Shown: piece after piece, positions 4,364-34,234 of the stretch | How the letters are laid out: each line of letters starts with the position of its first letter | Numbering within the stretch: position 1 is the first letter of the stretch | NCBI GenBank assembly: GCA_027003115.1 | Contig: JALWYS010000182.1 | Coordinates: 1 to 39,268 of the forward strand | Origin: Deltaproteobacteria bacterium | Lineage (GTDB): Bacteria > Desulfobacterota > Dissulfuribacteria > Dissulfuribacterales > QOAL01 | Direction of reading: 5' to 3' | DNA: 39,268 nt | Program-made: the position numbers and the translations under genes | Notes under the pieces: generated by a model | Databases searched by the model: none | The model's input: the letters and a program-made list of their open reading frames with translations, nothing else | Told to the model about the DNA's origin: nothing

Positions 4364-5137
4364 ATGGAAACTATTTTTGACATCCTGAAACAGACGAAAA
4401 AGGATAATTGCGGAAAATGCGGCTATCCAACATGCATGGCCTATGCTGCTGCTGTTCACACCGGGGCCTGTTCCAAGGCTGCCTGCCCCTTCGTTGAGGC
4501 AGAAGGTGAGGAGAGGCGCACCCCCCTTCAGGACCCAGAAACTGCCCTTGCAAAGGAGCTAAAAGAAAAGGTGAAGAGCGTTGACCTTGAAGAACGGGCC
4601 CATGGTCTGGACGGAGAGGTGGTTGAAACGGATTTTGGAAGGGCGCTTCGTATAAAGTACCTTGGCAGGGACGTTTTCATAAGCCCTGAGCGGGTGTTTT
4701 CAGAAGATGGCTCAGAGCTTGAAACCAGGGATCAGATACTCCTTTACAATTACCTCTTTTTTGGTGGAAAGGGAGAGCTCAGCGGAAAGTGGGTAGGACT
4801 TGAGTCCTTTCCAAATTCCATCTCCAAGGTTGTGACACTAAAGCGCTATACAGAGGAAAAGATAGCCCGCCACTTTGCAGGGCGCGAAGAGGAGTTCCTT
4901 GAGCAGTGCAAAAGGCTTGGGGCAAAAGAGGTGGAGGATTGCCAGGCAGACGCCTGTGTAGTGGTCTTTGTTCTACCAAAGGTGCCAATCCAGCTAAACT
5001 TCTGGGACGAGGACAGGGAAGACAACTTTCCTGCAGAGGTAAAGGCCCTTTTTGACAGTAGGGCCCTTGACTTCCTTGACATTGAATCCCTTATCTTTGC
5101 CGCTGAAAGGCTTGCAGAGACAATTATCGGGCAGTGA
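4364..5137 (+). CDS. Fe-S (CFeSP-type 4Cys) domain plus DUF3786 protein
   Basis: 257 aa; N-terminal DNCGKCGYPTCMAYAAAVHTGACSKAACPF cluster; C-terminal region resembles DUF3786 (recalled, not searched). Confidence 0.75.
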   Translation: METIFDILKQTKKDNCGKCGYPTCMAYAAAVHTGACSKAACPFVEAEGEERRTPLQDPETALAKELKEKVKSVDLEERAHGLDGEVVETDFGRALRIKYLGRDVFISPERVFSEDGSELETRDQILLYNYLFFGGKGELSGKWVGLESFPNSISKVVTLKRYTEEKIARHFAGREEEFLEQCKRLGAKEVEDCQADACVVVFVLPKVPIQLNFWDEDREDNFPAEVKALFDSRALDFLDIESLIFAAERLAETIIGQ

Positions 5138-5606
5138 GCCTTGAAAGGGCCTGCCGCATGGCCTTGGGAAACCTGCAAAGAAGCCTGTTTCCTTCAAGGG
5201 CAAGGGCAGTACCAAGGTGGTGTTTCTTGAATTTTACCATTACATAACCTGGAACATCCACACTTTCAGAAAGGGTTGGAAGTGATATTTCTCCCTCGGT
5301 GCAGAGGCTGGTTATGGTCTCAAGGTCAAGTTCAAGAACGTTTCTTCTTGCCTCCCTACCAAAGCGCTGGATGAAAACCGTTGTAGGCTTTAGAAAACCT
5401 GCCACGTTTCTTACAAAGGGAAGGCCACATCTTACAAACGCACCCTCAGGCCACTTAATTTCAAATGGCTGCCGTCGAAAAAGGAACGCCTGCCTGGAGA
5501 AGGCAAACATGTCAAAATCTTGAAAAATTTTCCTGGAAATTTCAAACCTTTCCTCAAAAAAGCCGGCAAGGATGTCTCTCTGATCATCACTTAACAATCT
5601 TGGCAA
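5124..5606 (-). CDS. RsmF C-terminal/PUA-like RNA-binding protein (start uncertain: TTG 5606/5597 or ATG 5669)
   Basis: YVMVKFKKHHLGTALALEGNRLLCRFPKAMRQ matches the pattern of the C-terminal PUA-like domain of NOL1/NOP2/Sun methyltransferases. Overlaps the upstream methyltransferase stop codon. Confidence 0.7.
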   Translation of the reverse strand: MPRLLSDDQRDILAGFFEERFEISRKIFQDFDMFAFSRQAFLFRRQPFEIKWPEGAFVRCGLPFVRNVAGFLKPTTVFIQRFGREARRNVLELDLETITSLCTEGEISLPTLSESVDVPGYVMVKFKKHHLGTALALEGNRLLCRFPKAMRQALSRLTAR

Positions 5607-6504
5607 CGAAGAATCCCACTGAGTCGATCTTGTGGGGGTAAAAACGTCCAGCAAGTCTGATCTGTTCATGGTATCTTTTTTCCTTAAAACTTGTGATTCC
5701 AGGTTCGTGTTCCACAGGAAGGTCCAGAGGGGCCAGGGAGGCGCGCCTTTTATTCAAAAGAAACTCGATTACCTCCTCGTTTTCCTCCACGTTTAGCGTG
5801 CACGTGGAATAGACCAGGATGCCTCCGGGCCGTAGCATGTCAAAGGCATGTTTTATCAGGGCCTTTTGTATTGCAGAGAGGTTGGTCTTACCCTTTACCA
5901 TGTGTTTTACCTGGCCTGTATTCGGGTCGATCCTGTACTTGCCCTGGCCGCTGCATGGCGCATCCACCAGGACCTTGTGAAAGGAGTAGGGCAGGAGGAG
6001 ATGCTCGCCCCTTCCCTGGGTGACAAGGGTGTTGGTGATCCCGAGCCTTTTGACATTTGAAAGAAGGGAGGTGATCCTTCCGCGTTTTCGGTCATTTGCC
6101 ACCAGAAAGCCTCTGTCCTGCATCTTTTGTGAGATGTAGGTGGCCTTACCCCCTGGGGCGGCACAAAGGTCAAGGACGGTTTCTCCGGGCTTGGGATCAA
6201 GGGCAAGTACTGGCAGACAGGAAGAAATGGCCTGGGGGTAGATGTATCCAAGGAAGTAGCTGAGTAGCGGCCTTTGGTGGTCATGGTACAGGACCTTTAC
6301 CACCTCATCTATTGGAGTTTCCTCAAAATCTACCCCTTCATCCTTGAGAAAGGCCTTGGCCTTTTCCAGGTTTGTTTTAAGGGTATTGATCCTGAAGTAA
6401 ACGGGTAGGGGTTTTTGGAGGTGTTCCAGGAGTTCTTGGAAGCCCGGAATCAGATCCCTGTATTCTTCCAGCGTCTTTAAAAATGGCTGCATCAGCAGAC
6501 GCAA
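5587..6504 (-). CDS. RsmB/NOP family class I SAM-dependent RNA (C5-cytosine) methyltransferase
   Basis: 305 aa; VLDLCAAPGGKATYISQKM, VLVDAPCSGQGKYR and ILVYSTCTLNVEENEEVI (PCS and TCT catalytic Cys motifs). Confidence 0.93.
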   Translation of the reverse strand: MRLLMQPFLKTLEEYRDLIPGFQELLEHLQKPLPVYFRINTLKTNLEKAKAFLKDEGVDFEETPIDEVVKVLYHDHQRPLLSYFLGYIYPQAISSCLPVLALDPKPGETVLDLCAAPGGKATYISQKMQDRGFLVANDRKRGRITSLLSNVKRLGITNTLVTQGRGEHLLLPYSFHKVLVDAPCSGQGKYRIDPNTGQVKHMVKGKTNLSAIQKALIKHAFDMLRPGGILVYSTCTLNVEENEEVIEFLLNKRRASLAPLDLPVEHEPGITSFKEKRYHEQIRLAGRFYPHKIDSVGFFVAKIVK

Positions 6505-13883: not shown

Positions 13884-14639
13884 CTATTCACCCAGATACG
13901 CTGCTATCACATCTGGATTTTTCTGTATCTGTTCAGGAGGTCCCTCTGCAAGGAGCCTTCCGTAATTTAACACCAGGACCCTTTGGGATATTTCCATTAC
14001 AAGACTCATGTTGTGCTCTACAAGGAGCACGGTTATTCCTGACTCACATATCCGTTTTATGAGTTGGCAAAGTTCCTGTGTTTCCGTATCGTTGAGGCCG
14101 GCAGCAGGTTCATCCATAAGGAGCAGTTTTGGCTTAGATGCCAGGGACCTAGCCACTTCAAGCTTTTTAAGAAGTCCGTAAGGAAGGCCAGCAGCTGGAC
14201 GATCCTTATACTCAGAAAGGCCACAAAAGTGGAGGGCTTCCTCTGCCATGCGCCTTACCTCTTTCTCTTCTTGAATCACAGAGGGAAGCCTCAGGGCAGA
14301 GGCCAGAAGTCCCGTTCTGGAACGCAGGTGGCAGCCCACCATAACGTTTTCTATGGCACTCATGTTTAAAAAGACCTGAAGGTTCTGAAACGTGCGGCTT
14401 ATGCCAAGCCTTGCAATTTTAAAGGGCGGAAGCCCTGTTATTTCCTTATCCTTGAAAAAGATGGAGCCTGCACTTGGTTTGTAGATATTGGTGAGCAGGT
14501 TAAAAAGGGTGGTCTTTCCTGCTCCATTTGGCCCGATTATGGAAAAGATGATGTTTTCTGGCACGGAAAAGCTTAGATCCGAGATGGCCTTTAGCCCTCC
14601 AAACTGTTTTTCCAGGTTTTTAACCTTTAAAAGGGACAT
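13884..14639 (-). CDS. livG: Branched-chain amino acid-type ABC transporter ATP-binding protein
   Basis: GPNGAGKTTLFNLLTN Walker A, LLLMDEPAAGLN Walker B, in order with the permease genes. Confidence 0.92.
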   Translation of the reverse strand: MSLLKVKNLEKQFGGLKAISDLSFSVPENIIFSIIGPNGAGKTTLFNLLTNIYKPSAGSIFFKDKEITGLPPFKIARLGISRTFQNLQVFLNMSAIENVMVGCHLRSRTGLLASALRLPSVIQEEKEVRRMAEEALHFCGLSEYKDRPAAGLPYGLLKKLEVARSLASKPKLLLMDEPAAGLNDTETQELCQLIKRICESGITVLLVEHNMSLVMEISQRVLVLNYGRLLAEGPPEQIQKNPDVIAAYLGE

Positions 14640-15592
14640 CAGGAGCCAATCCCCCTTTTTGAAAGCATCATGGCTGCCCTGTTTTTTAGTGAAACAAACA
14701 GGCCTTCTGGCAGGAATATCATTATTACCATGAGGATCAGGCCAAAGACGAGGACCTCAAAGTCTTCGAACACTATGAGCACCTCTGGCAGTATGGAAAG
14801 AATGAATGCGCCCAGGACAGCCCCAAAGGTTGAACCAAGGCCGCCCAGCACCACCATTGTCACTAGTTCAATGGAGAAGAAGAAGCTGAAGGATTCAGGG
14901 CTTACAAAATCCTGCTGGTGGGCAAAGAGGCTTCCGGCTAATGCGGCCATGAGCGCGGAAAAGACAAAGATGTGGGACTTGACTTTTGCCGTGTCGATGC
15001 CCATCATCTGTGCGGCTATTTCGCTTCCGTGCACTGCAGAAAGGGCGCGACCTGCCCTGGAATCAGCAATGTTAAGTGAAAAGAGTACGCTTAAAAGCAT
15101 GTAGGAGCAAAGGACGAAGTACCATTTGATGTCCGAATCTATGGCTACGCCAAAGAGGGAAAGGGTGGGAAGGCCGGTTATGCCGTCTGGACCGCCGGTA
15201 AGCTCGTCTGCCTGTACAAAAAATATGTGTACAATTATTCCAAGTCCCAGGGTGGCCATGGCCAGATAGTGGCCCTTTAATCTCAGGATTGGACGGGAAA
15301 GTACATAGGAAAGACAAATGACAAGGACTGCCCCCAAGATCATTGCAAGCCAAGGGTTAAGGCCATACTTTATGGTGAGAATGGCTGAAGAATATGCTCC
15401 AAGGCCAAAAAAGGCGGCATGTCCAAGGGATATTTGACCGGCGTAACCCATGAGCAGGTTGAGGCTTACGGCAAGGGTGATGTTAAGAAAGATGGTAAGT
15501 CCAACCACTGTGACGTAGTAATTGTCAGGAAATATAACAGGCAGCAAAAGGCAGACTGCAGCAAAGATTGCAAAGCCGGCTAGCCTTTTCAT
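14639..15592 (-). CDS. livM: Branched-chain amino acid-type ABC transporter permease
   Basis: 317 aa polytopic protein; NLLMGYAGQISLGHAAFFGLGAY and VLGGLGSTFGAVLGA LivM motifs. Confidence 0.92.
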   Translation of the reverse strand: MKRLAGFAIFAAVCLLLPVIFPDNYYVTVVGLTIFLNITLAVSLNLLMGYAGQISLGHAAFFGLGAYSSAILTIKYGLNPWLAMILGAVLVICLSYVLSRPILRLKGHYLAMATLGLGIIVHIFFVQADELTGGPDGITGLPTLSLFGVAIDSDIKWYFVLCSYMLLSVLFSLNIADSRAGRALSAVHGSEIAAQMMGIDTAKVKSHIFVFSALMAALAGSLFAHQQDFVSPESFSFFFSIELVTMVVLGGLGSTFGAVLGAFILSILPEVLIVFEDFEVLVFGLILMVIMIFLPEGLFVSLKNRAAMMLSKRGIGS

Positions 15593-16461
15593 ACCCTTTC
15601 TGTTTCTCCCTTACCCAGGATTCCGCTCGGTTTGACGAAAAGCACAAGTAAGATCACGAAAAAGGCAATGGCATCCTTGTAGCCTGAGGAAATAAAGCCT
15701 GCGCCAACGGTTTCAACTATTCCAAGGAGAATTCCTCCAAGGACTGCGCCCATGGAGTTTCCCATGCCTCCAAGGATGGCTGCGCAAAATCCCTTAAGCC
15801 CAAGCATTACCCCTGCCCCGTAGGACATGAAGGTTATGGGGGTAACGAGAAGCCCGGCCGCTGAACCAAGGGCTGCAGACAGTCCGTAGGCCACAAGGAG
15901 CATCTTTTTTACGTCGATCCCCACAAGATAGGCGGCCTTCTTGTTGTACGAACAGGCAAGTATTGCCTTTCCCATTCTGGTTCGGTCGAAAAAGTACTTT
16001 ACCGCAAGGACCGTTACAGCAGTCCCCATCATGACCCACAGGTTCTGGGGAAGTATGGTTGCATTTCCAATTTTTATAGGATTATTGGATGTGAATGGGG
16101 GAAGCCCGTAGATTTCCTTTCCCCAGATCAAAAGGGCTGCTCCTCTAAGGAAGATGGAGGCGCCTATGGTGATTATGATGGTGCTTACCACAGTGGCGTT
16201 TTTTGCCGGCTCTATGGCGAATTTTTCAAGGGCAAGGCCAACTCCCGCCGTTATGGCAATGGCAAGAAGTGCAGCAAAGGGATAGGAAAGGCCAGCCTTC
16301 ATCAAGAAGATGGCGCTCATGGCACCAATCATGACAAACTCGCCCTGGGCGAAGTTTACCACGTCAGATGCGTTGTAAATTATTGAGAAACCAAGGGCCA
16401 CTAGGGCGTAGATGGAACCTACGGTAAGTCCGCTTATGAGAAACTGTAGAAGCTGGTCCAT
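15589..16461 (-). CDS. livH: Branched-chain amino acid-type ABC transporter permease
   Basis: 290 aa polytopic protein; SGLTVGSIYALVALGFSIIYNASDVVNFAQGEFVMIGA LivH motif. Confidence 0.93.
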   Translation of the reverse strand: MDQLLQFLISGLTVGSIYALVALGFSIIYNASDVVNFAQGEFVMIGAMSAIFLMKAGLSYPFAALLAIAITAGVGLALEKFAIEPAKNATVVSTIIITIGASIFLRGAALLIWGKEIYGLPPFTSNNPIKIGNATILPQNLWVMMGTAVTVLAVKYFFDRTRMGKAILACSYNKKAAYLVGIDVKKMLLVAYGLSAALGSAAGLLVTPITFMSYGAGVMLGLKGFCAAILGGMGNSMGAVLGGILLGIVETVGAGFISSGYKDAIAFFVILLVLFVKPSGILGKGETERV

Positions 16462-16561: not shown

Positions 16562-17713
16562 TTAATAGAGCAGTTTCCAGTTTCCGTTTTGTATCTCAAT
16601 CATCTTGAAGGCGTCGAGGTTCAGGCCTAGGTGGTCGGTGGGGCTCATGTTGAAGATGCCGCCTGTACCAACAAAGCCGTGGGTCTTTTCGATTTCATCC
16701 CTAATTTTGGCTCTGTCTATGGTGCCTGCCCTCTTGACCGCCTCCACTGTTATGAACAGGGCGTCATAGGCGTGTCCACCGAAGGTTGAGACCGGGCCAT
16801 ATTTTGCCTCGTATTTCTTCTTGTAAGCAAGAAGGACCTTCTTCTGCGGGTCATCAGCAGGAAGCTGGTCCGCAACGATGAGTGCAGCAGCAGGAAGCCT
16901 TATCCCGTTTGCAGCATCTCCTGCAAGCTCAATGAATTTCTTGGAGGCGACTCCGTGGGATTCGTAAACTGGTAGCTTTATTCCAAGTTGCTTAATGTTC
17001 TTTGCAACTATGGCAGGGGCCTTGCCGAAGCCGAAGTTTATAATGGCCTGGGCATCGGTTGCCCTTATCTTGGTAAGCTGGGTGGTCATGTCCGTGTCGG
17101 CATTGCCATACTTTTCATCAGCTACTATCTCGATGCCATACTTTGGGGCAAGGGCAAGACACTGGGCACGGCCGGACTTGTCAAAACCGCCGTTTCCTGT
17201 GATGAGTGCGGCCTTCTTGATTCCACGTTTCTTCATGTCTGCAAATATCTTCTCGGCGGCCATTTTGTCCGTGTGGGGTGTCTTGAAGACCCACTTTTTC
17301 ACGGGTTCAACTATCTTGATGGAGCCTGCAAGTGATATGAAGGGTACCTTTGCCTTTTCCACAATGTCAATTACGGCAAGGCTGTTTCCAGATGTGGTTC
17401 CGCCAATGATTACGTCAACCTTGTCCTTCTTGATGAGACGGTTGACGAAATTCTTGGCCTCCTTGGCCTTGCCCTTGGTGTCATAGTGGACAAACTCAAT
17501 TTTGTGTCCGTTTATCCCACCCTTTGCATTTATCTCCTCTATGTACATCTGAAGGGTCTTGAGCTCCGGATCACCAAGAAATGACGCAGGGCCGGTAACT
17601 GCTAGGAAAGAGCCTATTTTTAAGGTATCCTTTGCCTGAACCAGGCTGGTTCCAGAAAGAAATGCCAGTGAAAAAACGGCCAGTAACGTAACGATGTTTT
17701 TGAAGAAACGCAT
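16562..17713 (-). CDS. livK: Periplasmic substrate-binding protein of a branched-chain amino acid-type ABC transporter
   Basis: Signal peptide MRFFKNIVTLLAVFSLAFLSGTSLVQA; LKIGSFLAVTGPASFLGDPELKTLQMYIEEINAKGGINGHKIE. ATG 17713 preceded by GGGAGGAG; the longer ORF start looks spurious. Confidence 0.92.
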   Translation of the reverse strand: MRFFKNIVTLLAVFSLAFLSGTSLVQAKDTLKIGSFLAVTGPASFLGDPELKTLQMYIEEINAKGGINGHKIEFVHYDTKGKAKEAKNFVNRLIKKDKVDVIIGGTTSGNSLAVIDIVEKAKVPFISLAGSIKIVEPVKKWVFKTPHTDKMAAEKIFADMKKRGIKKAALITGNGGFDKSGRAQCLALAPKYGIEIVADEKYGNADTDMTTQLTKIRATDAQAIINFGFGKAPAIVAKNIKQLGIKLPVYESHGVASKKFIELAGDAANGIRLPAAALIVADQLPADDPQKKVLLAYKKKYEAKYGPVSTFGGHAYDALFITVEAVKRAGTIDRAKIRDEIEKTHGFVGTGGIFNMSPTDHLGLNLDAFKMIEIQNGNWKLLY

Positions 17714-17740
17714 TTTTTCTCCTCCCTCTAAGATTTTATA

Positions 17741-17779
17741 ACGTTGACTAATACACAAAAAGAGAGCATTTATCAACGT
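17741..17779 (-). promoter_or_regulatory. Putative sigma-70 promoter of livK flanked by an inverted repeat
   Basis: Minus strand TTGATA (17776-17771), 17-nt spacer, TATTAG (17753-17748). ACGTTGA (17741-17747) and TCAACGT (17773-17779) form an inverted repeat around it. Confidence 0.45.
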
Positions 17780-17878
17780 CAAAACCTGAAAGCAAAAAGT
17801 GTTAGGTTTTGTTTGTGGCCACTAGCTGAACCGAAAAAGGAAGCGCAGTGTGCAAATGGTGAAAGGCAAGGCTTATAA

Positions 17879-18613
17879 ATGCTTCATATAAAAAATCTAA
17901 ATGCAAGTTATGGTCCCATACAGGTTTTAAAAAACTGCTCCCTCCACGTGGATGAGGGAGAGATTGTTTCCATAATTGGAGCAAATGGGGCAGGAAAGAC
18001 CACCCTTCTGCTTTCTGTCTCAGGCCTCATGGGTTCCCTTTCAGGTGAGATAACCTTTTGTGGCAAATCAATTAAGGGCCTTTCCCCGGACAAAATAGTA
18101 TCCCTTGGTATTGCCCACTGCCCTGAAGGAAGGCAGCTTTTCAGCCCCCTTTCCGTGTATGAAAACCTAATGCTTGGTGCCTATGCCAGGAAAAAGGTGG
18201 ACCAGAAGACGCTGGATCAGGAACTTGAGCAGATATTTGAGCTTTTTCCCAGGCTCAAGGAACGCCTGGATCAGACCGCAGGTACACTAAGTGGAGGCGA
18301 GCAGCAGATGCTTGCAATTGGTCGCGCCCTTATGGCCAGTCCGAGGCTCCTGCTTCTTGACGAGCCTTCCCTTGGACTTGCGCCCCGCCTTGTGGAAACC
18401 ATTATAAAAACCATTGTTGATCTTAACTCAAAGGGTATGACCATCTTGCTTGTTGAGCAGAATGCAAGAAAGGCCCTTGAGATATCGCACAGGGCCTATA
18501 TCCTTGAGACAGGCCGTATTATACTCCAGGGAAAGGCCTCTGACCTGGCTGAAGACAGTGAAATAAAGAGGGCCTATCTGGGCAAGGATTACAAAGACCT
18601 ATCTGAAAGGTAA
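17879..18613 (+). CDS. livF: Branched-chain amino acid-type ABC transporter ATP-binding protein
   Basis: GANGAGKTTLLLSVSGLMG Walker A, LSGGEQQMLAIGRALMASPRLLLLDEPSLGLAP; divergent from livKHMG. Confidence 0.93.
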   Translation: MLHIKNLNASYGPIQVLKNCSLHVDEGEIVSIIGANGAGKTTLLLSVSGLMGSLSGEITFCGKSIKGLSPDKIVSLGIAHCPEGRQLFSPLSVYENLMLGAYARKKVDQKTLDQELEQIFELFPRLKERLDQTAGTLSGGEQQMLAIGRALMASPRLLLLDEPSLGLAPRLVETIIKTIVDLNSKGMTILLVEQNARKALEISHRAYILETGRIILQGKASDLAEDSEIKRAYLGKDYKDLSER

Positions 18614-18620
18614 AAAAGAC

Positions 18621-19931
18621 ATGGAACTTGACAGGGTGGAGTATCTTTCGACTGAGGCGTGGAATCAGTGGCACACGGAACTTTTGCAATCAACTGTAAA
18701 TCGGGCTTACAACAGGGTGCCCTTCTACAGGAAGAGGCTTGATGAGATTGGTGTGGGCCCAGATGACATTGGTTCCGTAGAGGATATAAAAAAGCTTCCC
18801 TTTACAAGCAGGGAGGACATGGCTGAAAATTATCCCTACGGGCTTTTTTCAGTGCCTTTGCGTGATATTGTGCGCATTAATACCCTCAGAAGCGGGCAGG
18901 CGAATCCCATAGCCCTTGGCTATACCAAGCAAGACCTCAAGAGAAGGAGGGAGCTTACCGGGCGATTTTTTCGCTCTGCCGGGGTCAACCAGGACGACAT
19001 CGTGCAGATATGCCTTGACCCTGGCATGTCTCTTCACGGGCAGGATCTAAAGGAGGGTGCGGAATTTCTGGGTGCACTTGTGATTCCTCCAGATCCTGTT
19101 TCAGTGCTAAGCAGAATCAGGGTCATGGTGGATTTTAAAACCACTGTCCTTGTGACTACCCCTTCCTACGGCCTTTATATGCTCGAGACCTTCAAAGAGA
19201 CAAACATGCCACTGGCTTCGCTCAATCTCAGGCTCATGATCCTTCTTGGCGAAACCCTGACAGATGAGACCAGGGCCATATTTGAGAGAGAGCTCGATGT
19301 GAAGACCAGGGCTGCATATGGCCTTTTCGAGGCCTCTGGCCCTGCCATGGCCTACGAATGCAAGAATAAGAAAGGGCTGCATATTGCCCTGGACCATGTA
19401 ATTGCCGAGATTATCAATCCTGAAACCCTGGAGGTCCTTGGTCCAGGCCAGGAAGGTGAGCTTGTCATAACCACGGTTACGGTGAGGGCAAATCCGCTCC
19501 TTCGCTTCCGCACAGGTGACATTACCAGCCTGCACAAAAAAACCTGCTCCTGCGGAAGAACCACATGGAGAATGAGTCCCGTAAGCAGAAGGAGTGACAA
19601 CATCGTGACCGTACGCGGTGTAAAGATATCCCCAGACCATGTGCGCAACATCATACGCCAGTCCACTGGGGGAAAAAACCTCTCTTTCATTATCGTTTTG
19701 GGTAAATGGAAACATCTGACCCAGGTAGAGATACCAGTTGCCATCGATGATTCCTTTTTTTCAGGGAGCCTCCCGAAACTTCACAACTGGATCAGGGAGA
19801 CCGAGGACCTCTTCCTTGAGTCCCTGGGGCTCAGATGCAGGATAAAGCCTGTGGAGCTTAGATCCATTAAGGGTTTTCTGGAATCAGGGCAGGTGATTGT
19901 GGATAGGGATCGGTTTCTTTCTGGCGTCTGA
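18621..19931 (+). CDS. Phenylacetate-CoA ligase (PaaK)-like protein with atypical ATP-binding motif
   Basis: 436 aa; family-level similarity (NRAYNRVPFYRKRLDE, TTPSYGLYMLE, AAYGLFEASGPAMAYEC, LRFRTGDIT, SRRSDNIVTVRGVKISPDHV), but the P-loop position reads LRSGQANP. Confidence 0.85.
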   Translation: MELDRVEYLSTEAWNQWHTELLQSTVNRAYNRVPFYRKRLDEIGVGPDDIGSVEDIKKLPFTSREDMAENYPYGLFSVPLRDIVRINTLRSGQANPIALGYTKQDLKRRRELTGRFFRSAGVNQDDIVQICLDPGMSLHGQDLKEGAEFLGALVIPPDPVSVLSRIRVMVDFKTTVLVTTPSYGLYMLETFKETNMPLASLNLRLMILLGETLTDETRAIFERELDVKTRAAYGLFEASGPAMAYECKNKKGLHIALDHVIAEIINPETLEVLGPGQEGELVITTVTVRANPLLRFRTGDITSLHKKTCSCGRTTWRMSPVSRRSDNIVTVRGVKISPDHVRNIIRQSTGGKNLSFIIVLGKWKHLTQVEIPVAIDDSFFSGSLPKLHNWIRETEDLFLESLGLRCRIKPVELRSIKGFLESGQVIVDRDRFLSGV

Positions 19932-22774: not shown

Positions 22775-23006
22775 ATCTCCTTCTCACCCGTCCAAAGACC
22801 CTTTTATCATTAAGTTTCAGGCCTTACCAGCGGTATTTAAGCCATATTTTGAAGAAAGTAAAAGAAAAATTGCGCATTAAATGGGGGGAAGGTTTAAGTT
22901 TCAAATTTTCTTTTCATTAAAGGACTCTCACTTTCTCTTCGTATTTTTTAAAATTTCCTCAAAAAGAATCACCTGGTTGACGATAAAGAAAATAAAAAAG
23001 CTAACC

Positions 23007-24017
23007 ATGACTGTTAATCAAGACGCCTTTAGCCTGAAAAAGCCTGTGGCATTACGCCAAGGCCACGAAATGTCAACGCAGGATAGAGGAAGTCCTAGCC
23101 TTGATTTTTCAGGAAGGGACCTCTCTGGCACGAACTTCCAGGCCCAGGATCTTAAAGGGGCAAACTTTTCAGGCGCAAATCTTACAGGTGTATCATTTTT
23201 GAGGGCGGATCTTACTGGCGCCATATTCATTGGTGCAAATCTTGAAAGGGCGGATTTTAGCGGGGCATGTCTAAAGGATGCGCACCTTGAAAGGGTAAAG
23301 GCGGAAAGGGCAGGCTTTGGAATGGCAGACCTTTCAGGCGCATGCCTTTTTGGTGCGAACCTTGCCCAGGCATGTTTCGTAAAGGCGGATCTTCCAGACG
23401 CAGACCTTCGTTGCTCAGAGCTTCGGGGTGCAAGGCTCAGAGAAGCCAATCTTTGTAGCGCCGATCTTACAGAGGCCAATCTAAAGGGTAGTGATCTTTC
23501 CATGTGCAATGTGAGGGGTGCTCTTTTCACAAATGCCGACATGAGAAACACCAGGCTTAGGCAAGTAACAGGTTTTAAAGAGGCGGACTGGATAGGAACG
23601 GATCTCAGGAACATAAATTTCGCCGGCGCCTACCTTCTTCGCCGCCATGCAGTGGATCAGAATTATATAAAAGAGTTCAAGGAATCAGGCAGGGTTGCCA
23701 AATGCCTGTATTACCTTTGGCTCATAAGCAGTGATTGCGGCAGAAGCATGTCCAGGTGGTGTTTTTGGATAGTGGTTCAGATATGTTTCTTTGCTTGGCT
23801 CTACTCCCTGGTTGGGGTGGATTACGGACTGCATCCCACCTCCATTTCCGACCTTTATTTGAGCGTTGTTACTCTTACCACCCTTGGTTTTGGCGATGTG
23901 GTGCCAAAAAACGTGGCTGGCCAGATAGTGGTAATGTGCGAGGTGGTAACTGGATACATGATGTTGGGAGGCCTTCTGTCTATCTTCAGTAATAAGATGG
24001 CCCGAAGAGGAGAATAA
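23007..24017 (+). CDS. Pentapeptide-repeat protein fused to a two-TM K+ channel pore (start uncertain; longest ORF 22881)
   Basis: About 25 A(D/N)LxX-type repeats, then TM, VVTLTTLGFGDVVPKN selectivity filter, TM. Confidence 0.88.
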   Translation: MTVNQDAFSLKKPVALRQGHEMSTQDRGSPSLDFSGRDLSGTNFQAQDLKGANFSGANLTGVSFLRADLTGAIFIGANLERADFSGACLKDAHLERVKAERAGFGMADLSGACLFGANLAQACFVKADLPDADLRCSELRGARLREANLCSADLTEANLKGSDLSMCNVRGALFTNADMRNTRLRQVTGFKEADWIGTDLRNINFAGAYLLRRHAVDQNYIKEFKESGRVAKCLYYLWLISSDCGRSMSRWCFWIVVQICFFAWLYSLVGVDYGLHPTSISDLYLSVVTLTTLGFGDVVPKNVAGQIVVMCEVVTGYMMLGGLLSIFSNKMARRGE

Positions 24018-30923: not shown

Positions 30924-31571
30924 TTATATGATTGGGCCTATCAGGAGTCTGTTGGCGTAATTGATGAGCGGGACTATAATTCGGTCGGTCACCCCTGTAA
31001 AGATGAGCACAAGGAGAATTATGAACCCGTACCGTTCAAGGGCCTCGTAGTGGTGCATGAGGTTTCTTGGCAAAAGCCCTGCAAGCACCTTGCTGCCGTC
31101 AAGGGGAGGAACAGGTATCAGATTAAATATGGCAAGTCCTATGTTTATTTGTATGCTTACAAAGGCCATGTAAAGAAGCGGCCTTATGATATAGCCCATG
31201 GACGCTGAAGCCCCGGATAGGGGCCCGATTATGGAGCGAAGAACAAGGGCGCTCAAAACTGCAAGGGCTATGTTAGAAGCTGGGCCGGCCAGGGCAACCC
31301 ATATCATGTCCCTCTTGGGGTCCTTGAAATTCAAAGGGTTTACAGGCACAGGCTTTGCCCAGCCTATCATCTGGGTAATGAAAAAGACAAGGGTTCCAAC
31401 AGGGTCAAGGTGCTTGATGGGGTTAAGGGTTAGCCTTCCCATGGCCTTTGCCGTTGGATCCCCAAGCTTCCATGCTGCAAGCCCGTGGGCAACCTCGTGG
31501 ACCGTTACCGCAAAGAGTATGGGCGGGGTAAGGATGAGTATCTTTTGAATCATGGATGGTATATCTATCAT
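30924..31571 (-). CDS. Site-2 protease family (M50) membrane metalloprotease
   Basis: 215 aa; AVTVHEVAHGLAAWKLGD (HExxH) and NLIPVPPLDGSKVL motifs. Confidence 0.93.
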   Translation of the reverse strand: MIDIPSMIQKILILTPPILFAVTVHEVAHGLAAWKLGDPTAKAMGRLTLNPIKHLDPVGTLVFFITQMIGWAKPVPVNPLNFKDPKRDMIWVALAGPASNIALAVLSALVLRSIIGPLSGASASMGYIIRPLLYMAFVSIQINIGLAIFNLIPVPPLDGSKVLAGLLPRNLMHHYEALERYGFIILLVLIFTGVTDRIIVPLINYANRLLIGPII

Positions 31572-34234
31572 TTGGATTTCTCTCCGAAATTTTTCTTTAC
31601 GTATTCGATTTCTTCTTCTTTCGTGTTTAAGAGGCCGTCAAGCCGGGCCTTTTTCACGGCATCAAGGATCTTACGATATATGGGGCCTGGAGTAAAGCCA
31701 AGCCTCTTTAGGTCTCTGCCTGTGATTCGTGGCCTTATCCTTGATAGTTCGGTTATGTATCTGGAGATGGCCTGCCTTACAGGTTTTCTTGAAAGGGCCA
31801 TAAGGTAAAGGAGAAACTCTGTCTCCTGTCCTTCAAGTAGTTCCACTATCTTGCTAGCCTTAAGCCTTGAGACTGCCTCCATCTCTTCCATGAGCCTTTT
31901 GGCCTTTTCTGGCGCCGTGATTATCTCCCTTTCGACTTTGCCTGTGATTCCAAGACGCCTTGTGAGTTCCTGACGCTCATTAAAGCCCATATTGGTAACA
32001 AGGGCCATGAGATAGACCTGCCACCTCCTTACCTTCCTGCTTAGATAAAGGAGTTCATACCAGGCAAGAACGTCATATACAGAGTCAAGGAGCCTTTTTT
32101 CCTGCCTTCCCAGAGACAGCTTGGGGTGAATTGCCTCAAGGACCTTGAGGCTGTTAAGGCGCAAAAGGGAGGGTCTTGGGTCAGGCTCTTCCAGGATGAG
32201 TCTCAGCTCTGTAAAGAGCCTTTTTGACGAAAGCCTGTCAAGGATACCAAGTTTAAGGCTGTTTTTTATTAGCCTAAGTGTGTGTTTCCCAATCTTGAAG
32301 CCGAATCTCTGCTCGAATCTCACTGCACGAAGTATGCGGGTTGGATCATCAATGAAGCTCAGGCTGTGAAGCACCCTGATGATCCCATCTTTCAGGTCCC
32401 TTTGGCCTCCAAAAAAGTCTATCAGAACGCCAAAATCTTTGGAGTTGAGCTTTATGGCAAGGGTATTGATGGTAAAATCTCTTCTAAAAAGGTCGAGCTT
32501 TATGGAGGAGAGGGCCACTGTGGGCATTGCCGCCGGATACTCGTAATACTCCCACCTGGCAGTTGCCACGTCTATCTTTGATCCGTCAGGAAAGATGATG
32601 ACTGCCGTTCCAAATTTTTTGTGGGTGCGGGTCCTTGCGGAAAATTTTTCTGCAAATTTCTTGGCAAAACGGATTCCATCTCCCTCCACCACAAGGTCTA
32701 TGTCGAAGTTTGGTCTTCTTAGAAGAAGGTCACGGACAAAGCCCCCAACCACGTAAACATTCATGCCTAGCTCATCAGCCGTCTTCCCCGCCTCCTCGAG
32801 AAACAATAGAGTCCTCTCAGGAAGCTGCATCTCCATGAGTTTCCTGATGTTTCTCCTGCTGGCGCTTGGAGGGATAAGGGCCTCCGGGCGCTTTGTGGGG
32901 TCTGATGATAGAATCTCCAGAAGGTCCGTCCTGGTGATTATCCCGGTAAGCGTGCCATCTTCCCCCACAACTGGTATGAAACGCTGGTGGCCTTCTACTA
33001 TGGCCTGTTGAACCTTTGAAAGATCATCCTTTGGAGAAAAGACCTTGAATTCCGTGGACATGTACTCGTAAACGGGCTGGGCCCCAAGGCCGTGGTAGAT
33101 GGCCTTTTCCACAATGTTCCTTGTCACAAAGCCCTTTATTCTCCCTTTTTTTGCAACGGGAATTATGGAAAAACCATACTTGGCAATGAGATCATGGACC
33201 TCATAAATTGGGGCCTCTGGCTCAACCCACACAACTGGGCTTGACATTATATCCGCCACCTTGAGCCCCTTTCCAAGGTGCGCACTAAGGGCAGAGACCA
33301 GCCTGTTTTCCGCCTCGGAAAGGGTTACGCCTTTCAAGGAGGCGGAGGCAGCAAAGGGGTGGCCGCCACCACCTAATTCCTGAAGGATCTTGCCCACATC
33401 GACCCTCTTGTCCCTGCTTCTCGCCACAACTATCACGTGGTCATCCATCATGGCCAAGGCAAAAAGCACAGGAAGTCTGGCCATGTCCATGAGTTCGTGC
33501 ACTAGAACTGCATAGTCATCCAGGTACATGGAGGAAGAAGATCTCGCAATGGTTACAGGGATGCTTCCAAAATTGAGGGTTTGGGCCGATTCCAGGAGGT
33601 CATTAAGTGCGCTTATGTGCTCTGGAGTGAACCTCCCTCCAAGAAACTTTGTGATCTGGGCAAGGCTCCCCCCCTTTTCAAGGAGCCACGCAGCCTGTCT
33701 GAGATCCTCGGCAGTTGTTGATGTAAAGGTGAAGGAGCCCGTATCTTCGTATATGCCAAGTAGAAACAGGTCAAGCTCCTGCCTTGACAGTTTAATTCCC
33801 CTTTTTCTGAGCCCTCTCAAAAGAAGAGTGGTGTTTGCGCCAACATCTCCCGAGATATACCTGTTGAACCGAATGTCGCAGTCGTCCTTTTTGTGGTGGT
33901 CGTAGATGATGACCTTCAGGTCTTTTTTTTCTAAAAGTTCGCCAAGGGGGCCGAGGCGCTCCCTCTGGTTGGTATCCACCACCACAAGGCGCTCAAGATA
34001 TGAAAGGTCAAGCTCCTTTAAGGAGGAAAACATGGAAAGAAGGGGTGAGCCCTTTTCCTTGAGGGCCTTTAGATAGTCCCTAACCGCCTTTTCCTGGGAA
34101 CCTGGCAGAACAACCACCGTTTCATTCCCGTAGAGCCGGGCAGCAGCCACGCTGGAGGCCAGACCGTCAAAGTCTGCGTTCAGATGGGTAGTTACGACAG
34201 TAACTGGTTTCTTGCTGAAGGTATTGGTTGTCAA
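31568..34234 (-). CDS. DHH/DHHA1 - tandem CBS - tRNA nucleotidyltransferase (class II, CCA/A-adding type) fusion
   Basis: 888 aa; THLNADFDGLASSVAA, IYDHHKKDD, GGGGHPFAA (DHH/DHHA1); two CBS segments; VYVVGGFVRDLLLRRPNFDIDLVVEGDG and RRDFTINTLAIKL (nucleotidyltransferase). Confidence 0.93.
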   Translation of the reverse strand: MTTNTFSKKPVTVVTTHLNADFDGLASSVAAARLYGNETVVVLPGSQEKAVRDYLKALKEKGSPLLSMFSSLKELDLSYLERLVVVDTNQRERLGPLGELLEKKDLKVIIYDHHKKDDCDIRFNRYISGDVGANTTLLLRGLRKRGIKLSRQELDLFLLGIYEDTGSFTFTSTTAEDLRQAAWLLEKGGSLAQITKFLGGRFTPEHISALNDLLESAQTLNFGSIPVTIARSSSSMYLDDYAVLVHELMDMARLPVLFALAMMDDHVIVVARSRDKRVDVGKILQELGGGGHPFAASASLKGVTLSEAENRLVSALSAHLGKGLKVADIMSSPVVWVEPEAPIYEVHDLIAKYGFSIIPVAKKGRIKGFVTRNIVEKAIYHGLGAQPVYEYMSTEFKVFSPKDDLSKVQQAIVEGHQRFIPVVGEDGTLTGIITRTDLLEILSSDPTKRPEALIPPSASRRNIRKLMEMQLPERTLLFLEEAGKTADELGMNVYVVGGFVRDLLLRRPNFDIDLVVEGDGIRFAKKFAEKFSARTRTHKKFGTAVIIFPDGSKIDVATARWEYYEYPAAMPTVALSSIKLDLFRRDFTINTLAIKLNSKDFGVLIDFFGGQRDLKDGIIRVLHSLSFIDDPTRILRAVRFEQRFGFKIGKHTLRLIKNSLKLGILDRLSSKRLFTELRLILEEPDPRPSLLRLNSLKVLEAIHPKLSLGRQEKRLLDSVYDVLAWYELLYLSRKVRRWQVYLMALVTNMGFNERQELTRRLGITGKVEREIITAPEKAKRLMEEMEAVSRLKASKIVELLEGQETEFLLYLMALSRKPVRQAISRYITELSRIRPRITGRDLKRLGFTPGPIYRKILDAVKKARLDGLLNTKEEEIEYVKKNFGEKSK

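Follow-up and report, generated by a model that had tools for sequence, protein, structure and literature searches.

A predicted PaaK-derived pseudoenzyme encoded directly after livF in the order Dissulfuribacterales

The gene at positions 18621 to 19931 (plus strand) of the window, by which we mean the whole 39,268-nucleotide stretch of DNA that was analysed, encodes a 436-residue protein (hereafter psPaaK) that is well supported, on its sequence and that of its relatives, as a pseudoenzyme derived from the PaaK family. The loss of catalytic motifs, the purifying selection and the coupling to livF are seen directly, and the fold is a confident prediction. We favour, with moderate confidence, a role for psPaaK as a non-catalytic cytosolic partner of LivF, the ATPase of an amino-acid-type importer, which would bind a product-like ligand and adjust the importer to the internal supply.

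Predicted structure of psPaaK

The open reading frame is full length, in frame and free of internal stops, as an earlier sequence-only reading had stated. The AlphaFold2 model, made with an alignment of 48 relatives, has a pLDDT of 93.7 and a pTM of 0.90. PaaK enzymes are the nearest solved structures. In a Foldseek comparison the model came closest to the conformation of PaaK2 with phenylacetyl adenylate (2y4o, TM 0.90), compared with a TM of 0.71 to PaaK1 (2y27). psPaaK thus appears, from the model, to have a complete ANL fold of the full-length PaaK type, with both N- and C-terminal domains. The Pfam matches to psPaaK are AMP-binding at residues 152 to 285 (43 bits) and a sub-threshold AMP-binding_C_2 (19.8 bits), versus 61.3 bits, from residue 78 and so taking in the P-loop, and 109.1 bits for an intact paralogue (PaaK1; L002/L074). 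The latter is kept elsewhere in the window's genome, unlinked to psPaaK, where it adjoins a double-ACT protein. The alpha subunit of indolepyruvate ferredoxin oxidoreductase (IorA) appears split over two contig ends of the same genome (G000; C85:5-1012 and C194:2506-3273), which probably therefore has this aryl-pyruvate oxidising enzyme.

Loss of the phosphate loop and of the A10 lysine

Orthologues of psPaaK were found in 29 of the 46 genomes of the order and form a monophyletic clade with 100/100 support. Two of them, in G001 and G037, are truncated at contig edges; the other 27 were aligned, including that of G009, which is cut short at its C-terminus.

Residues 84 to 102 (18870-18926) read VRINTLRSGQANPIALGYT. 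The psPaaK segment RINTLRSGQANPIALGYT aligns with RIHSSSGTTGKPTVVGYT of the intact paralogue (L002/L074) with no gap, the P-loop S-S-G-T-T-G-K-P of the latter becoming L-R-S-G-Q-A-N-P. At the A3 phosphate loop position (residues 88 to 96, 18882-18908, plus strand), TLRSGQANP thus stands in place of SSSGTTGKP: the Ser/Thr/Gly pattern is lost, the final proline is the sole survivor and the flanks are kept. In the psPaaK model the former loop sits between the same two strands, E85-89 and E97-101. The gap-free replacement claimed by the sequence-only reading is confirmed. The P-loop is missing from all 27 aligned orthologues, so the loss goes beyond chance. The presence of the same replacement in 27 members of the order excludes a sequencing or frame error, and the alignment, gap-free at the loop position, gives no sign that the P-loop has moved elsewhere in the open reading frame.

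The usual C-terminal lysine had likewise been reported as apparently missing. In the A10 region the paralogue reads GKAKRIID and psPaaK ESGQVIVD, so that in the former motif (residues 420-425, LESGQV; 19878-19895, plus strand) Ser422 occupies the column of the catalytic lysine. A lysine six residues upstream of this column, in SIKG, is not conserved among the orthologues. The observation needs one caution, as the column is mixed in the order (five Lys, four Ser, three each of Arg, Glu and Ala, plus others); with an aligned lysine in 5 of 27 members, the A10 lysine is not conserved in the order, rather than absent everywhere. The canonical comparison set, with lysine in 23 of 23 members, was picked for having both P-loop and lysine and serves as a reference, not as a test.

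Other motifs are retained on the plus strand: A5 (Y233-E237, YGLFE; 19317-19331), A7 (R297-D300, RTGD, with the ribose-binding Asp; 19509-19520) and A8 (R324-x-D326-x6-G333; 19590-19619). Their residues are kept in 26 or 27 of the 27 members of the order, R324 in 22 of 27. In a review of these motifs A3 binds the phosphates of ATP, the A10 lysine is the key catalytic residue, A7 and A8 contact the ribose hydroxyls and A5 helps to stabilise ATP; in a related ligase, mutation of A3 residues lowered the activity by up to 2,000-fold (PMC8388817). Given these roles, the pattern in psPaaK reads as loss of the parts predicted to handle phosphates and retention of those predicted to hold adenosine.

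Within the order clade, 25 further positions each carry, in 92% or more of members, a residue that is rare in canonical PaaK. Several lie in residues 131 to 158 (19011-19094, plus strand), CLDPGMSLHGQDLKEGAEFLGALVIPPD, where the fixed changes are C131, L132, D133, E145, L153, P157 and D158 in place of canonical A, Y, G, Y, S, V and S. In a PaaK protein this segment would lie on the acyl-binding side.

Retention of A5, A7, A8 and the two-domain architecture would suit an enzyme of altered chemistry, which might for instance be limited to the thioester half-reaction (from acyl-AMP and CoA, or in the opposite direction) or handle phosphates through a different loop and lysine. The proximity of the model to the 2y4o conformation, a Lys or Arg that some members carry close to A10 and the GTT that the sister groups (families f17 and f60) keep in a P-loop only partly eroded (PGTTEKP) point the same way. 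We nevertheless consider such an enzyme unlikely: residues 90 to 95 lie at the 87th percentile of variability among six-residue windows in the order clade, versus the 1st percentile (the most conserved 1%) in canonical PaaK, a misfit for a new catalytic loop, and the A10 region of the psPaaK clade has no conserved substitute lysine.

Coupling of psPaaK to livF

The livF gene (17879-18613, plus strand) encodes an ABC ATPase with intact Walker A (GANGAGKTT) and signature (LSGGEQQ) motifs and forms a two-gene unit with psPaaK, which starts after a gap of 7 nucleotides. A ribosome-binding-like GAAAGGT (18605-18613, plus strand) precedes the start of psPaaK and overlaps the stop codon of livF, and translational coupling of the two genes is therefore likely. 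The substrate-binding protein gene livK (16562-17782) is divergent from livF and is followed on the minus strand by the permease genes livH (15589-16461) and livM (14639-15592) and the ATPase gene livG (13884-14639), the last three named by position and similarity; livKHMG is thus oriented opposite to livF-psPaaK. A promoter and terminator scan of the region gave no signal above chance. Elsewhere in the window, a pentapeptide-repeat protein is fused to an ion channel domain (22881-24017, plus strand; Ion_trans_2, filter-like TLGFGD), and an 888-residue fusion joins DHH/DHHA1, two CBS domains and a poly(A) polymerase head (31568-34234, minus strand).

In every genome of the order with a readable junction, psPaaK lies directly after livF, so the livF linkage noted from the window alone extends through the order. 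The exceptions are at assembly edges: livF at a contig end in G030, psPaaK at a contig end in G037 and a cut psPaaK in G001. Each livF-bearing genome has one LivF match at 1e-50. At least eight genomes (G011, G012, G015, G020, G022, G024, G028 and G032) have livF and psPaaK adjacent and livH on another contig, and in G011 this split is separate from the genus-mate G014. Since livF and psPaaK stay together where livH is elsewhere, the coupling is with livF and does not extend to the operon as a whole. In G029 a diverged liv cluster (LivF 48%) lacks psPaaK, so this partner is not needed by every Liv-type importer; otherwise, genomes of the order that lack livF also lack psPaaK.

This distribution bears on another unlikely possibility, that psPaaK is a dead subunit which heterodimerises with intact PaaK1 and regulates it. 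Characterised Burkholderia PaaK1 and PaaK2 form homodimers (PMC8388817, PMC4498308), most genomes with psPaaK also encode an intact PaaK1, and other families hold both genes in one cluster, ordered PaaK1-ACT-livKHMGF-PaaK2. This order points to a second CoA ligase within a Liv cluster as the ancestor of psPaaK. PaaK1 is however unlinked in the window's genome, and the presence of psPaaK follows livF better than PaaK1: G026 and G033 have PaaK1 and neither livF nor psPaaK, and G020 and G025 have psPaaK and livF with no PaaK1-type match, although these are drafts (86-89% complete), in which absences are soft.

The strict and likely translational coupling to livF would also be expected of a ligand-free scaffold, or of a factor that assembles or stabilises LivF or the transporter. 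As this leaves the retention of the adenosine-binding motifs A5, A7 and A8 unexplained, we hold it to be more doubtful still.

Selection on psPaaK

Approximate Nei-Gojobori omega values for psPaaK were 0.063 (G000-G003, dS 0.94) and 0.061 (G004-G005, dS 0.10), the remaining genome pairs being at or near dS saturation. At the same two pairs the intact paralogue had omega values of 0.034 and 0.020, and livF had values of 0.074 and 0.144. The dN of psPaaK is about four times that of the intact paralogue, and the copies in the order are free of internal stops even though most comparisons among them show saturated dS. Because omega is about 0.06 and 25 clade-specific sites are fixed, psPaaK is read as being under purifying selection, with random, neutral decay excluded; the estimate of dN/dS thus agrees with the suggestion of the sequence-only reading that this is a repurposed pseudoenzyme and not a decaying gene. 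A redundant duplicate in slow decay, its stop codon yet to come, might show such fast dN and freely varying motif columns, but the low omega, the intact frames, the fixed residues and a livF linkage kept across families make it highly improbable.

Distribution in the phylum

Among the PaaK sequences from fetched loci, 75 of 104 follow livF; the loci were chosen for similarity to psPaaK, so that fractions for the phylum are no census. A quick tree built without the trait columns placed psPaaK in a clade of 57 sequences (SH-aLRT 99), all of them livF-linked; the order clade thus lies within a larger group of the kind that the sequence-only reading had envisaged, joining the substitutions with livF linkage. 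By a loose rule the P-loop is eroded in 55 of the 57, and the other two (L055 and L066) have kept the loop (SGITGKP) and lost the lysine. The L055 stretch holds three copies of PaaK along with three sets of liv genes; one liv-cluster PaaK there (4990-6306, minus strand) has no A10 lysine and a three-residue deletion inside the P-loop, between SGDVG and ITGFT.

A second livF-linked group also includes eroded copies, its other members being intact. Among the eroded ones, L069, L137, L139 and L161 show a P-loop loss of their own (TETSLTP or TDTIDTP) with an intact PaaK nearby. The starred branches require the state of the P-loop to have changed at least three times. Fully intact copies number 3 of 75 in livF-linked sequences and 23 of 29 in the others (Fisher p 1.4e-14), a value that ignores relatedness, comes from similarity-picked loci and is illustrative only; phylogenetically independent comparison of livF linkage with P-loop loss has only 3 to 6 pairs and no power. 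No natural livF-PaaK fusion was found among the fetched loci. Directly beside the eroded livF-linked PaaK of families f17 and f60, a second periplasmic binding protein is encoded (L129:7030-8163, L130:7533, L132:4624, L134:4410, L135:6693, L142:7368); it is Peripla_BP_6 in L129 and about 28-30% identical to the window's livK product.

Proposed function

psPaaK would have descended from a livF-linked PaaK-type aryl- or acyl-CoA ligase. From the loss of the A3 loop and the A10 lysine, the elements that deal with the phosphates of ATP, we infer that adenylation was lost. The whole predicted fold and the adenosine and ribose motifs would have been retained, other residues changing and then becoming fixed. 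The protein might then bind AMP, an acyl-adenylate, or an acyl-CoA or acid, contact LivF and tune import activity to internal supply, in principle as PII, EIIA-Glc and the C2 domain of MetN do. Gene order is no proof of contact between psPaaK and LivF.

More tentatively, PaaK-derived pseudoenzymes throughout the phylum could be undescribed LivF-associated regulatory subunits that sense adenylate or acyl-CoA and control a Liv-type importer, having arisen from an ancestral livF-linked CoA ligase whose phosphate loop was lost independently more than once. No description of a livF-linked PaaK pseudoenzyme was found in the open-access literature, and proteins of this type probably carry the annotation phenylacetate-CoA ligase, a label that would lead pathway reconstructions astray. 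Should the link with LivF prove functional, the fold of a metabolic enzyme has become a transporter partner at the scale of a phylum, with a hint at how Liv-type importers are controlled in these organisms. A graded series survives at one gene position, from intact copies through loss of the lysine only to loss of both features, so that the path by which an enzyme became a pseudoenzyme can be put to the test.

Comparison with known systems

psPaaK is 30-32% identical to the solved structures of PaaK phenylacetate-CoA ligases (TIGR02155; 2y27, 2y4n, 2y4o; also 4r1l). It shares with them the full-length fold, the A5 Tyr/Glu, the A7 Asp and the A8 RxDx6G of active PaaK-type CoA ligases, and differs in lacking the SSGTTGKP-like A3 loop and the A10 lysine (GKxxR), in its clade-fixed residues and in its livF linkage. 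Its TIGR02155 score, 278.5 bits, is below the cut-off of 646.3, a weak criterion as the intact paralogue (532.7) also falls below. A PaaK-like N-terminal region is shared with the DVU_1553-family AMP-dependent CoA ligases (NF045666), at 170.5 bits against a cut-off of 300; this model, 331 positions long, stops before the C-terminal domain. Other livF-linked PaaK2 copies in the phylum, such as L063, L143 and L157, are of the same family and occupy the same position after livF; since both P-loop and lysine are intact, they are presumably active ligases and may show the ancestral form of psPaaK. Loss of catalytic residues, a retained predicted fold and clade-wide purifying selection place psPaaK among pseudoenzymes under selection.

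With importer regulatory subunits psPaaK has in common its genetic coupling to a transporter ATPase gene. We know of no ANL-fold protein among importer regulators of the PII, EIIA-Glc and MetN C2 type. Those cytosolic regulators act on importer ATPases, PII on Urt and Nrt, EIIA-Glc on MalK and the C2 domain within MetN (PMC10710835). The proposed mode of action of psPaaK, in which a cytosolic protein or domain responds to a metabolite and acts on an importer ATPase, would thus be a functional analogy to these systems.
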